In this document: positions 43,955 to 49,349 of the stretch, piece after piece | How positions within the stretch are numbered: position 1 is the stretch's first letter | Layout: every line of letters starts with the position of its first letter | Virus record (IMG/VR): IMGVR_UViG_3300036820_000009 | Span: 29,726 to 93,725 of that record | Strand: one strand, 5' to 3' | DNA from: a virus | DNA: 64,000 nt | Program-made: the position numbers and the translations under genes | Notes under the pieces: generated by a model | The model's input: the letters and a program-made list of their open reading frames with translations, nothing else | The model's database searches: none | Told to the model about the DNA's origin: nothing

Positions 43955-44349
43955 GTGAGCTCCGTTTTTGGATCGGAAAGAAAGGAATGGCTGAGGTTGC
44001 GGGTGAAATAATTGGTGCTGACGGGATCGTCCGACGCGCCTTCGGCGCCGCCGTAATGGACGCATAGATCGTCGGTCCCGGCTTCGTAGGTCCGGCAGGC
44101 GTGTGGCCGATTGGCGTAATCGCCGCAGCGACCGTTCGGCAACAGATTAAAGCACCACCAGACCCAATTGCCGTCACGGCGCCGATAGAGCGGCATGAAC
44201 GATAAAGGATGTTCCTCGAATCCGCTTTGCGCCGCCATCTGCACGATCGCTTCGAGTGCGGTCTCGACCGTGGCGACCCGCGGATCACCCGATAGGATTA
44301 CCGCGCGACAGCAATTGCCCGGCACGAAACACGAATCGCAAACCGACAT
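43939..44349 (-). CDS. YkgJ-like cysteine-cluster protein
   Basis: 136 residues; its ATG (44349) overlaps the portal stop (TGATG). It has VCDSCFVPGNCCRAVIL, and later CFNLLPNGRCGDYANRPHAC and TDDLCVHYGG: the multi-Cys layout (C-x2-C, CC, C, C) of YkgJ-type putative Fe-S or zinc proteins. The second YkgJ-like gene is at 49611-50240. Function in phages is unknown; metal binding is probable. Confidence 0.6.
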   Translation of the reverse strand: MSVCDSCFVPGNCCRAVILSGDPRVATVETALEAIVQMAAQSGFEEHPLSFMPLYRRRDGNWVWWCFNLLPNGRCGDYANRPHACRTYEAGTDDLCVHYGGAEGASDDPVSTNYFTRNLSHSFLSDPKTELTCPAD

Positions 44350-46058
44350 CAAGCCGCCCGTTTTGTTTCGGTCGCACTATTCCGTCTGACGCCGCTGATC
44401 TTGCCGTGCGCCTCGGACCGCGCCGGATCCTTCGATGGCTTGAACGGCGCACCCGCGGACTCGCCATCCTTGCCATCGGTATCGAGGCCCAACATGGCTT
44501 CGAGCATGGTGGCGGCCATGGTCTGGAACGCATTGGTTTTGCCCGGATCCGCGGGGCAGAGCCCGAGAATGATCGCCAGCGGTTCCAGTTCCTTGTGATC
44601 CTTCACCATTTCGACCAGCTTCGGCCTGCCCGCCATGACGCGCTGTTCGTCGAAGGTGCAGGCATTCATTTTCGCTTCGTATTGCCGCGCATCCTCTTTT
44701 GGATTTTTGCCGGTAAACACAAACTGCAAATGCGGCCAGCGCGACCACAGCAGATATTCGTTGATGAAGGCTTCGATGTGCCCGAGCAGCGGCGCCAGGC
44801 CGGGATCGTCTTCATCGACCGCGTTGCCCGATGAATCCGGCAACGGTTCGGTATCGCGGCCCTTGCCGCTGATCCGATAGCCGAGCCGGCGCGCCGGGAA
44901 TCGATAGATGCAGCAGAACAGGCCGGCCAGCATGTTCATCCATTCCTCGTAATATCCCTCCATCCCTTTGACCGATGAGAGATCGACGAGTTCGAATTTC
45001 GCTTCGCCCGACAGGCCGACCACCGGCATCGCCCATGCCTTGGTGATACCGCGCTTCATGTTGGTCCACAGCCGATTGAAAATGTCGAGCTGGCGCTGCG
45101 TGACCGAGCCGCCGGTGATGGTCAGGATCGCGTTCGGAATGCCATTGCGATTGAACACGTCGACATTGAGATCGATCGCGTTCTGGAACCCTTGAATCAG
45201 CCGGATCGCGATTTCGATTTCGCTATAGCCGTAGCCCGACGCAAAGAGATCGCCGGATACCGCGACGTCCGTCCGCGTGTTGCGGACATAGAAAGTGAGC
45301 TGTTCGCGCGTAAATTCCTGGACAACCTTGCCGCCCTGGTCGACGCCGACCGCGAAGATCTTCGGATCGCCTTTGTAGCCGCGCTTCGCGGTCAGCCGGA
45401 TATTGCCGGCGGGCAGCAGCGAATAGCCCTTGACCTTGTCGTCGCCGGTCATGTCGGTCCACAGCGCCAGCCCGTCATAGGTCAGCATGTCGCGCACCGC
45501 GGCCGCCAGGAAATTCTTGAACCCAAGACACCGCGCTTCGTCGCGCTTGCGGGCTTGCGCATATGTCGTTTCGGCATTGGAATTGAGAATGAAGCGCTGC
45601 GCTTCCAGGATTTCCTTCGCCAGCGTATCGGACTGCTCTTCCTTTTTCTCGCGCGCCTCGATGCGCCAGCCCGGTTTCCAGATCTCCGTCGACAGATCCG
45701 AATAACGCTGCACGTCATCGCAGCGCATGCCGATCACGACTTGCGGCGCCACGTTCTCGCGCGCGATTTTTTGCAGCGCTTCCGGCGCGATGCCGGGCCA
45801 TGGCAGTACGCCGGTCGCATTGGGATCCGGCATGTATTCGATGCGGCCATAGGCGAAATCGCCCGGCGGCAGATTGAGCGATTTCAGCGCGGCGGGAAGC
45901 CCGCTCCCGCCCATGTCCTTGAACAGGCCCTCGAAAAAGCTGACATAGCCTTCGTGATCGAGCGCGGTAACATTGCCGATCGATCCGGCACTCGGCAGCC
46001 TAACCGCCGAGTCCCCCTGATTCGCGTCAAATGGTTCGCGTGTCGGACCTTCTGACAT
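44349..46058 (-). CDS. Portal protein
   Basis: 569 residues from an ATG at 46058 (MSEGPTREPFDANQ). It follows the terminase and precedes the capsid module. The stem, VFNRNGIPNAILTITGGSVT, then RLWTNMKRGITKAWAMPVVG, EGYYEEWMNMLAGLFCCIYR and FPARRLGY, fits the clip, stem and crown elements of dodecameric portals, including the conserved long helix before DSSGNAVDEDDPGLAP. The C-terminal tail is disordered (SKDPARSEAHGKISG). It overlaps the terminase end by 32 bp. Confidence 0.82.
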   Translation of the reverse strand: MSEGPTREPFDANQGDSAVRLPSAGSIGNVTALDHEGYVSFFEGLFKDMGGSGLPAALKSLNLPPGDFAYGRIEYMPDPNATGVLPWPGIAPEALQKIARENVAPQVVIGMRCDDVQRYSDLSTEIWKPGWRIEAREKKEEQSDTLAKEILEAQRFILNSNAETTYAQARKRDEARCLGFKNFLAAAVRDMLTYDGLALWTDMTGDDKVKGYSLLPAGNIRLTAKRGYKGDPKIFAVGVDQGGKVVQEFTREQLTFYVRNTRTDVAVSGDLFASGYGYSEIEIAIRLIQGFQNAIDLNVDVFNRNGIPNAILTITGGSVTQRQLDIFNRLWTNMKRGITKAWAMPVVGLSGEAKFELVDLSSVKGMEGYYEEWMNMLAGLFCCIYRFPARRLGYRISGKGRDTEPLPDSSGNAVDEDDPGLAPLLGHIEAFINEYLLWSRWPHLQFVFTGKNPKEDARQYEAKMNACTFDEQRVMAGRPKLVEMVKDHKELEPLAIILGLCPADPGKTNAFQTMAATMLEAMLGLDTDGKDGESAGAPFKPSKDPARSEAHGKISGVRRNSATETKRAA

Positions 46059-47163
46059 AGCCCCCGCCATCCGAAACTGGCCGGTCCACCAGCTCGACAT
46101 GTTCGCAACAATCCATCGGAATCATAGGACGGCGCCAGAGTCCGCACCAGCCTTTTTCATAATGCGTACAGTTCGAACAGCTCGTCGCGTAGGGATCGAC
46201 CACCATCGACGGCAGCTCGTCGATGAACATGAGGGCTTCGAGCCGCGGATCGGCGATGCCGTGATTGACCGCCTTGCTCGCCTCGATCAGGTCCGGCGGC
46301 GCGGTGTCGGGCGACCAATCGCTGGGCAGCAGCATGGTCTTGGCGCCCAACTGGATCGCATAGGTGACGAGATGCACGAACGCGTCGACCTGATCGCTGA
46401 CCGCGTCATCGATGCCCGAGAAATCCTTGAGCTCGGTTTCGAACGTCTTGAGCCAGCGCGCGGTTTGCGGGAATAGCACCCGATGCTGCCGGCACCAGCC
46501 CTGAACCGAGCCGGCTTCGGTGCCGCTGATCGCGCGCGCGCGCTTGCCTTCCTTGGCTTCGACGCCCTGGATGTTGATGTTGGCGCCGGGCATCGATTGC
46601 AGAATCGAGATACCGGATGCGCGGTTCTCGACCAGCACCAGCTCCGGCCGCCACTTCATGTGCTGTTGCCGCACCGCGAGCGGCAGGCTGCCCCAATCCA
46701 TCTTCTTGCGGAACACGTCAAGAATCAGCACGTCGAAATGGGCATCGCATGGCCCATTGATCTTCTCGTCTTCGCCGCAGTGATACTTGCTGCACGGTAG
46801 CAGCAATCCGGTCACGCAGACCGACCAGGCCGAGCCCGCGGTTTCGGAAAACGCCGTATCCCATGCCTGGAAAATGCCGTGCCCATGTTCGCAGAATTTA
46901 GCGACCGATGGCGCATTGATGCCGTACCACAGCGCTTCCGGCGGCACGTAATAGAGAAAATCCTTTTTGAGGAAGATCGAGCCTTCGCGCGCGCCCGGCC
47001 GCTGCTGATAGATGGCTTCGAAATCGGCGGGACTGTTGCGGCGAACCGCGGTGACTTCGCGTCGTTTCTGATCGGAGGTCGGCCAAAAAAACGCTTCGTT
47101 CCGATCCGCCCACGCTTCATCATAGCCGTAGGTGACTTTGAGTTTGATCAGGCCGTCGCTCAT
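46027..47163 (-). CDS. Large terminase, nuclease half (C-terminal part of a split gene)
   Basis: 378 residues from an ATG at 47163. It begins where terminases pass from ATPase to nuclease: YGYDEAWADRNEAFFWPTSD, then DFEAIYQQRPGAREGSIF. The RNase-H-like nuclease is FQAWDTAFSETAGSAWSV (Asp of the first metal site), FDVLILDVFRKKMDWGSLP, RPELVLVENRASGISIL and DAVSDQVDAFVHLVTYAI (third Asp). The last 65 residues add a Cys motif (CSNCTHYEKGWCGLW, DCCEHVEL). No Walker motifs are present; these are in 47987-48808. No ribosome-binding site is evident upstream. Confidence 0.85.
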   Translation of the reverse strand: MSDGLIKLKVTYGYDEAWADRNEAFFWPTSDQKRREVTAVRRNSPADFEAIYQQRPGAREGSIFLKKDFLYYVPPEALWYGINAPSVAKFCEHGHGIFQAWDTAFSETAGSAWSVCVTGLLLPCSKYHCGEDEKINGPCDAHFDVLILDVFRKKMDWGSLPLAVRQQHMKWRPELVLVENRASGISILQSMPGANINIQGVEAKEGKRARAISGTEAGSVQGWCRQHRVLFPQTARWLKTFETELKDFSGIDDAVSDQVDAFVHLVTYAIQLGAKTMLLPSDWSPDTAPPDLIEASKAVNHGIADPRLEALMFIDELPSMVVDPYATSCSNCTHYEKGWCGLWRRPMIPMDCCEHVELVDRPVSDGGGYVRRSDTRTI

Positions 47164-47177
47164 TGTTGGGGCATACC

Positions 47178-48023
47178 ATGCGACAGAAAATTATTCTACG
47201 GCGGGCTGGCGCGCTCGGCGACGTGCTGTGCGCCACGCCGATCGCGCGGCGCCTGCGGCAGCTCAACCCCGCTGCCGAAATCGTCGGCCAGACCAATGTG
47301 CCGGAAGCGCTCGCGGAAAATATCTGGATTGACCGCGTCATCCCGATGAATCAGCGGGAACCGGATGCCGAGCTGATCGATCTCGATCTCGCCTATGAGC
47401 GGCGCCCCACCATGCATATCGTCGATGCCTACATGGAAGCCGCCGGCATCGACGGCGATAAGACGCCCTGCTTCGGCCGGTTCCATCCAACAGGCACAAC
47501 CCACAAGATCGAGTTCATCGCCATCCATGCCGCGCGCGCGTGGCCGAGCCGGACATTCAGCCCGGCGTTTTGGGATACGGTGATCACCGTGCTGCTCCAC
47601 AAATTTTCCTATCCGATTGTCTTGGTCGGCCACGGCGGCGATTATCGTGTCGCGCATGACCGGGTGATCAATATGGTGGGCCGGCTGACGCTGGCCGAAA
47701 CCCGGCTCATGATCGAAACAGCCGGCCTGCTCGTGTGCAACGATTCGGGCATGCTGCACCTGGCCGGCACCACGCGCGCCGCCATTGTCGGCTTGTTCAC
47801 GTCGGTCAAGGCGGCCTATCGATTGCCGTATCGCGATGGCGTGCTCGGCTGGAATTGCGCGGCGATCGAGGCACCGATCGGCTGCTACGGGTGTCTCGCC
47901 GAGGCGCCGGTGCCGAGCACCAATCTGGTTTGCCGCCGCGGCGACAATGCCTGCGTGACATCGATCGAGCCGGCGGCGGTGGTGGATCAGGTCGCAACTT
48001 TCGTCGCCGGCAACGCAATGTGA
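47178..48023 (+). CDS. Heptosyltransferase-like glycosyltransferase, GT9 family, inserted in terminase
   Basis: 281 residues from an ATG at 47178. RRAGALGDVLCATPIARRL is the GT9 N-terminal motif and CNDSGMLHLAGTTRAAIVG the C-terminal donor motif. PIVLVGHGGDYRVAHDRVIN lies between the two domains. The end, CYGCLAEAPVPSTNLVCRRG then DNACVTSIEP, contains cysteines found in related proteins. It runs opposite to all its neighbours, starts 14 bp from the nuclease half and overlaps the ATPase half by 37 bp. It may add heptose or another sugar to lipopolysaccharide or a virion glycan. Confidence 0.8.
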   Translation: MRQKIILRRAGALGDVLCATPIARRLRQLNPAAEIVGQTNVPEALAENIWIDRVIPMNQREPDAELIDLDLAYERRPTMHIVDAYMEAAGIDGDKTPCFGRFHPTGTTHKIEFIAIHAARAWPSRTFSPAFWDTVITVLLHKFSYPIVLVGHGGDYRVAHDRVINMVGRLTLAETRLMIETAGLLVCNDSGMLHLAGTTRAAIVGLFTSVKAAYRLPYRDGVLGWNCAAIEAPIGCYGCLAEAPVPSTNLVCRRGDNACVTSIEPAAVVDQVATFVAGNAM

Positions 48024-48808
48024 TCGGTGAAGCAGCATTTGAGATCGGCCGGCAGCGTCACATCCCAAAACAGCTCGTTGGTGCCCTCGCGAATCGCCTG
48101 CAATTCCATGGTGACAAATTCGCCGCCATCGCGCCAATGCCCGTAGACGTCGTCTTCGTGCCAGCGCCGGCCAGCGCCGATGAAGCGCGCGCCGTTGGGA
48201 TCGGCGCGGCCGATCAGCGTGTCGTAATAGATATCGCGCACGATTTCGCATTGCTTGGCGTTGGCGGAATTTTCGCGGTTGTGGATGTCATCCATCAGGA
48301 TGACGCTGCCGTGCTTGCCGGTGATGACGCTCGATGTCACGCCGGCCACGAAATACGATGAATCGGGGTTGCCGAGATTGCGGCCGGTGACATAGATCCC
48401 GCGCTCGGTCGACCAGCCCGCCACCTTGTCGGGCATGACGGTCGGAAAGAACATGCGCCATTCCGGCGACCATTCGATCCAATCCATCACCGTTTTGAGG
48501 AAGCCTTGCATCAGCGTTTCGCCGGCGCTGGTGCCGAGCACGGTGCTGTCGGGCCGTTGGCCGATTTCGAATGCCGGGAACGCGCATGACAGCAGCAGCG
48601 ATTTGCCGGATCCCGGCGCTTGCAGAATCAGCAATTTTAGAATTCGCGGATCCATGAGCGCGTGCGCGACCGGATAGAGATGCGGCGGCAGCCCGAATCC
48701 GCGCGACTTGAACATGGCATTGTAGAAAGTGATTAATCCTTCGGCGCTATACGGCAGTATCGGCTGGACTTGTTTCTGCCGGCGCGACTGTGTCGCTTCC
48801 TTCGCCAT
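47987..48808 (-). CDS. Large terminase, ATPase half (N-terminal part of a split gene)
   Basis: 273 residues from an ATG at 48808 (MAKEATQSRRQKQ) with a gggga site. LILQAPGSGKSLLLSCAFPA is Walker A; SVILMDDIHNRENS is Walker B; IGAGRRWHEDDVYGHW is the coupling/arm motif before the nuclease domain. The chain then breaks: after ELFWDVTLPADLK the last 16 residues are encoded against the 3' end of the GT9 gene. The sequence continues functionally in 46027-47163. Confidence 0.85.
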   Translation of the reverse strand: MAKEATQSRRQKQVQPILPYSAEGLITFYNAMFKSRGFGLPPHLYPVAHALMDPRILKLLILQAPGSGKSLLLSCAFPAFEIGQRPDSTVLGTSAGETLMQGFLKTVMDWIEWSPEWRMFFPTVMPDKVAGWSTERGIYVTGRNLGNPDSSYFVAGVTSSVITGKHGSVILMDDIHNRENSANAKQCEIVRDIYYDTLIGRADPNGARFIGAGRRWHEDDVYGHWRDGGEFVTMELQAIREGTNELFWDVTLPADLKCCFTDHIALPATKVAT

Positions 48809-49349
48809 AGAATTCCCCATCGTCGACGGAGTGACCTTCCCCATCGATCGTTGGCGCGTCGACAATCGACACGCGCATGAAATCGCGCGATTTGGCCAGC
48901 GAGTCCTCGAACATCGTCTTGAGCTCGGACCGCAACATTTCGCGAACTTTTTCCTCGCCGTGATCGATTTGGATGACCTGTTTTTCGTTCCATCCGAATT
49001 GAGTCTTGGCGAGGAATTCCAGCAACCGCGGATTCGGCGCGCGTTCCGCCTGCACCATGTTGTTGCTGGCATCGAATTCCGCCGGCGCGCCGATCGCGGT
49101 GGTGAACACGGCTTTCGACAGATTGGCCTTCATCAGCACGGCGCCGGTCTGGACTTCGCGATCGAAAATCCGGTGCATGGTCGCCTTGGAGATCGGCCGG
49201 CCGGTCGCCGGATTGATGATCAGCAGGCAGATTTCGTCATGGCCGAGCGTGCTATAGCCAATGAGCCGCTCGACGAGATCGCGCTGGAATTTCGTCGGAT
49301 AGAAGGTCGCGTCGGGATCGGCGACAGGCAATGACGGGACAGCAGTCAT
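48747..49349 (-). CDS. Terminase small subunit-like DNA-binding protein
   Basis: 200 residues from an ATG at 49349. FYPTKFQRDLVERLIGYSTL and then PATGRPISKATMHRIF give a helix-rich DNA-binding region. EARPN-type text ERAPNPRLLEFLAKTQFGWN leads to acidic helices. The end (EGHSVDDGEFYGEGSDTVAP) overlaps the ATPase-half start. Position directly before the large subunit is the main argument; it likely recognises packaging sites. Confidence 0.7.
   Translation of the reverse strand: MTAVPSLPVADPDATFYPTKFQRDLVERLIGYSTLGHDEICLLIINPATGRPISKATMHRIFDREVQTGAVLMKANLSKAVFTTAIGAPAEFDASNNMVQAERAPNPRLLEFLAKTQFGWNEKQVIQIDHGEEKVREMLRSELKTMFEDSLAKSRDFMRVSIVDAPTIDGEGHSVDDGEFYGEGSDTVAPAETSPADTAV

Follow-up and report, generated by a model that had tools for sequence, protein, structure and literature searches.

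A large terminase encoded as two genes in a phage lineage, with the junction as a variable gene slot

How does a phage manage with a large terminase (TerL) whose ATPase and nuclease are encoded by two genes, with an unrelated gene on the opposite strand between them? The split matters because the two domains are thought to act as one covalent machine. A comparative survey describes the C-terminal nuclease domain of TerL as a universal feature across Caudovirales (PMC7824862), and in the T4 motor model ATP hydrolysis moves the two TerL domains across a flexible hinge, pushing DNA (PMC8589836). The locus lies in a window of 64,000 nucleotides, the end portion of a metagenomic IMG/VR record of 93.7 kb, and its features are collected in Table 1. 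Checked against the sequence, the coordinates and strands that the original prediction gave for the three reading frames are all correct, as are the overlap of the GT9 and ATPase frames and the distance from the GT9 start to the nuclease start at 47163 on the minus strand.

Table 1. Features of the terminase region, in positions of the window.
Feature	Position	Strand	Basis or remark
Giant glycosyltransferase, GT2-containing, up to 1327 aa	40082..44065	-	PF00535, E 1.9e-18
Portal protein	44349..46100	-	phrog_15361, E 5.4e-17; phrog_12, E 3.7e-14
TerL nuclease half, 378 aa	46027..47163	-	phrog_38; terminase-nuclease fold match; alignment A4
Gap between divergent GT9 and nuclease start codons, 14 bp	47164..47177	.	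Sequence
GT9-family glycosyltransferase, 281 aa	47178..48023	+	PF01075; homologues in L002, L171 and L172 at the same site
3'-3' overlap of GT9 and ATPase frames, 37 bp	47987..48023	.	Sequence
TerL ATPase half, 273 aa	47987..48808	-	phrog_38; fold match to PhiV-1 terminase 8dgc; alignment A3
200-aa ORF	48747..49349	-	Upstream of and overlapping the ATPase gene; candidate small terminase, judged by position alone

The TerL profile phrog_38 matches the ATPase half over columns 270-490 (E 2.5e-36) and the nuclease half over columns 489-714 (E 1.7e-21); these columns are consecutive and thus no part of TerL is missing. The ATPase half carries a Walker A motif (APGSGKS), a Walker B-like motif (LMDDIH) and a coupling motif (GRRW), all conserved or invariant in the six-row alignment A3, and ends in ..LKCCFTDHIALPATKVAT*. 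The nuclease half carries the active-site motifs WDTA, VLVENRASG and SDQVDAF together with a C-terminal four-cysteine motif, and its residues D102, E179, D257 and D260 are invariant in the seven-row alignment A4. Profiles and alignments therefore bear out the earlier assignment of the Walker and coupling motifs to one frame and of the nuclease acidic residues to the other. In fold searches the nuclease half, from a low-confidence model (mean pLDDT 60), matched the terminase nucleases RB49 gp17, G20c and HSV pUL15 (E approximately 3e-6 to 2e-5), and the ATPase half, from a model of modest to low confidence (pLDDT 68), matched the PhiV-1 terminase (E 7.5e-6) and, more weakly, T4 gp17. The order of P-loop ATPase and RNase H-like nuclease, with its motifs, is that of fused TerL proteins (T4 gp17, T7 gp19, phrog_38), but here there are two genes with two start and two stop codons, and an antisense gene between them. 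As the domains occupy separate reading frames, we regard the pair as a TerL homologue in two chains and not as a canonical TerL. Across the whole 93.7-kb record phrog_38 matched one ATPase and one nuclease, and no second large terminase was found. The portal gene, which overlaps the 3' end of the nuclease gene, is the conserved downstream neighbour; the 200-aa frame upstream gave no match in family searches of Pfam and PHROGs. Among its virion genes the window phage has those for the portal, the major head protein, the maturation protease, the tail sheath and the baseplate wedge, and this gene set indicates a contractile-tailed phage.

Repeated rounds of searching with alignments of the nuclease, the ATPase and the portal gathered 21 lineage records, window included, which are metagenomic and incomplete. 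TerL is split in 13 of them (the window, L002, L171, L172, L173, L174, L175, L166, L181, L182, L184, L186 and the MAG contig L104) and fused in the other eight (L167, L168, L176, L177, L179, L180, L183 and L187); L177 and L178, whose proteins are near-identical, were counted once. The split point is the same in all 13 and falls in the interdomain linker, between "..CCFT(D/E)" and "YGxDP..GFFWP", the region in which the domains of the fused L177 protein join as ..LECCFTEGAAQEVKTDDPKYRQFRAYYGVDPKKEGFFWP... In split members the ATPase stops soon after CCFT/CVFT and the nuclease starts shortly before the YGxDP..FFWP stretch; the conserved residues are all retained. Four relatives are split without any insert: stop and start codons meet in canonical overlaps in L175 (ATGA) and L173 (TAATG), the frames share 44 nt out of frame in L182, and they also overlap in L174. 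The ATGA, TAATG and 44-nt overlaps are, as sequence arrangements, typical of two translated cistrons. The original prediction had asked whether close relatives are unsplit, and the answer is mixed: eight are fused, but the others share the split at the same linker, insert-free members among them.

These searches found no cultured member of the lineage. The isolates that come nearest match parts of the proteins, the two TerL halves included, at approximately 33% identity at most, and the more distant TerL proteins are almost all fused, as are those of the isolates StM171 and QH16, which gave partial nuclease matches and were checked for a split. Two apparently split outgroup records (L018 and L086) were set aside, as their low-similarity overlapping frames could be sequencing frameshifts.

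The recurrence of the split in 12 other records, and of the GT9 insertion in three, excludes chance. It also bears on the suggestion that the element is inactive, with a broken TerL, or that the GT9 gene is an assembly chimera. The metagenomic origin and the single window would allow such a reading, which we consider most improbable: homologous GT9 genes sit at the same junction in three independent contigs from other metagenomes, 13 records are split, the catalytic motifs are invariant in the split members aligned, and the portal, major head protein, tail sheath and baseplate genes are intact.

The split was originally attributed to the GT9 gene, and this attribution fails. In L182, L175, L173 and L174 the break falls in the same linker with no insert present, other relatives carry different genes there, and eight relatives in the lineage are unsplit. 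On the sequences compared, the split is real and is not specific to GT9, and the junction is a gene slot of varying content. Its contents range from 0 to 5.9 kb, lie on either strand and comprise unrelated genes. The window holds the antisense GT9 gene only. The 2.8-kb slot of L002 has two plus-strand frames followed by antisense GT9, TylF-type and class-11/23 methyltransferase genes. In L171 (3.0 kb) a sense methyltransferase, a CxxCxxCC-type protein and GT9 precede antisense SLOG and GT34 genes, and in L172 (5.9 kb) a sense 571-aa DUF4214 frame precedes antisense GP88, CxxCxxCC, GT9 and methyltransferase genes. The 3.6-kb slot of L166 carries nrdA, nrdB and a D12-class adenine methylase (dam), that of L186 a Mom-like DNA modification gene (L186:7424-8086), and those of L181 and L184 frames of 204 and 108 aa, respectively. 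A 257-aa frame of L002, considered as a NUMOD3 homing protein, found no support in Pfam or PHROGs. Some slot cargo also has homologues at other sites of the window, for GP88 near 2.5-3.4 kb and for CxxCxxCC at 43.9 kb, between the portal and the giant glycosyltransferase, which indicates that accessory genes move between sites.

The nrdA and nrdB genes lie between the ATPase and nuclease genes at L166:8954-12396, and also in L250 and L104, both from the MAG G010. There one contig ends in the ATPase followed by an nrdA-like frame, and the other begins with nrdB, a 157-aa frame and the nuclease; this is probably the layout of L166 spread over two contigs.

Terminase genes are known sites of interruption. 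ICP1 terL carries an intron and is spliced (PMC10448857), in KASIA an HNH gene with group I intron-like sequence divides TerL (PMC8541194), Mic1 TerL is interrupted by inteins (PMC7156551), and herpesvirus UL15 consists of two exons around antisense UL16/UL17 (PMC3079670). Such precedents favor reading the two halves as exons from which an unrecognised intron, with its antisense cargo, is spliced out. We consider this quite unlikely, as Rfam searches at the gathering threshold in the window and five relatives returned no group I or II intron, the overlapping frames of the four insert-free relatives leave no room for one, and no element is common to inserts so varied in length, content and strand. 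For ICP1, KASIA and Mic1, removal of the interruption by splicing has been reported or proposed, whereas no splicing element was recognised at the junction here, and the slot cargo (GT9, MTase, RNR or Mom genes) is unlike theirs. By analogy, UL15 is the nearest structural parallel, as in both cases the terminase coding sequence is interrupted by unrelated antisense genes and the content of the gap is lineage-specific; UL15 is joined by RNA splicing, whereas the window halves are complete reading frames. Our search of the open-access literature for a clade-wide two-gene TerL or split terminase found only intron or intein cases; a two-gene TerL with a cargo slot may have been described earlier beyond that literature.

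Rejoining of the two chains by a split intein, through protein trans-splicing, is very improbable. Insertions of the LAGLIDADG or Hint type do occur in the lineage: L173 has an intein-like insertion with a LAGLIDADG domain near Walker A of the ATPase (L173:3538-5706), L180 a Hint insertion in the nuclease domain (L180:1578-4397) and L186 a LAGLIDADG insertion in the portal (L186:9254-12112). However, Pfam searches of the two window halves gave neither a Hint nor an intein domain, and most split members have tails of just 2 to 25 residues or so past the conserved core, which is too little for half an intein. A further intein-like insertion near Walker A of the L186 ATPase (L186:5705-7411) has no family match.

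The GT9 frame scores 37.3 bits against PF01075 (E 2.4e-9), above the gathering cut-off of 22, and thus belongs to the family. It resembles the heptosyltransferases WaaC/WaaF in this domain and in its PDB matches (3tov and 1psw), but its scores of 33.1, 30.8 and 30.6 bits against the heptosyltransferase II, III and I equivalogs fall far under their cut-offs (134.6, 170.2 and 185.3 bits). The GT9 proteins of L002, L171 and L172 are 42-45% identical to that of the window, share its motif residues and show conservation similar to, or slightly under, that of TerL and portal. Among 2.9 million viral contigs these three, all in the TerL slot, were the only close homologues, alongside one distant match; at other sites of the phage records searched no GT9 of this kind turned up, and a search of phage records gave no relative of GT9. 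In a simple gene call, no plus-strand gene other than GT9, whatever its length, was scored with confidence between approximately 5.2 and 62 kb. A scan for sigma-70-like promoters near GT9 gave nothing above chance. By its length, the 14-bp gap has no room for two promoters; a weak ribosome site precedes the nuclease start.

From these data we propose, with a probability of roughly three in four, that the large terminase gene underwent fission in its interdomain linker, yielding an ATPase and a nuclease as two proteins, and that the junction became a tolerated insertion slot inside the packaging operon. A late minus-strand transcript would run through the small-terminase candidate, the ATPase, the antisense GT9, the nuclease and the portal, and the two TerL chains would be made as separate proteins that come together non-covalently on the portal to form a two-subunit motor. 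The GT9 gene would be expressed off the other strand, probably early, and be shut off by late transcription, and its product, with the giant glycosyltransferase, would modify a host or phage glycan. Given the 14-bp gap and the chance-level promoter scans, the nuclease message would either read through antisense GT9 or start inside it. The two-chain motor raised in the original prediction thus stands as the best reading: TerL is encoded as two proteins, and we infer assembly in trans, as well as operon transcription, timing and the role of GT9. In T4, translocation depends on the C-terminal domain of TerL, and ATP hydrolysis shifts the domains relative to one another (PMC8589836); this counts against the reading, as a two-chain motor would have to transmit force without the covalent link. 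A more demanding version, in which an obligate and long-lived two-chain motor assembles in trans, the junction serves as a cargo slot and the glycosyltransferase is expressed reciprocally to packaging from a noncontiguous operon, is one we hold only tentatively.

The antisense gene nested between same-strand genes has the arrangement of noncontiguous operons such as S. aureus menE-menC (reviewed in PMC7154746) and tha/ith of phage 80alpha (PMC11087260), in which the flanking genes are likewise functionally linked; the likeness here is one of gene layout. Unlike in those cases, the linked genes on either side are the halves of a single enzyme. Within our preferred reading it is a sub-question whether the orientation of GT9 carries regulatory meaning. 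The slot may instead accept genes in either direction, with the nuclease served by its own promoter, a serious possibility if short of an even chance. The GT9 copy of L171 is sense and those of the window, L002 and L172 are antisense, and the RNR, Mom and other inserts are sense, in keeping with a neutral slot; the antisense orientation of three of the four GT9 copies and the mere 14 bp between the GT9 and nuclease starts argue the other way, neither decisively.

A two-chain TerL in a natural lineage that also has fused relatives makes the need for a covalent linker in coupling the ATPase to DNA binding directly testable. The slot further indicates how genes for accessory functions, in glycan modification, nucleotide metabolism and DNA modification, can be lodged in an essential module of a phage, at a place usually taken up by a single gene.

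A three-gene tree places the window within a clade of six split phages (support 99/98) and four others in a second split clade (100/99); L181 and L182 pair, and L174 groups with the fused L176 and L187. Constraining all split members to a single clade lowers the log-likelihood by 20 units (p-AU 0.06), and thus several fissions at one linker, or a single fission followed by refusions, are both possible. Four of the six phages in the window's clade carry GT9, which suggests a gain at the base of that clade and loss in L173 and L186. The LAGLIDADG and Hint insertions in L173, L180 and L186 indicate that homing elements act on the TerL and portal genes, which makes endonuclease-driven breakage a plausible cause of the slot at the linker.

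The cysteine motif of the nuclease half (CxxC..C..C; C329, C332, C340 and C353) is a possible zinc site. It is common to split and fused lineage nucleases, with variant spacing in L167, and was absent from all four more distant TerL proteins examined; its presence in fused members led us to reject it as an adaptation to being split. Two fused members have unusual layouts: the terminase of L183 (L183:7733-9673) lies on the strand opposite to the portal, and the TerL frame of L167 (L167:6939-9767) has approximately 350 extra N-terminal residues. A giant GT2 glycosyltransferase (approximately 950-1350 aa in complete copies) lies near the portal or terminase across a large part of the lineage; homologues were found in most members, split and fused alike.
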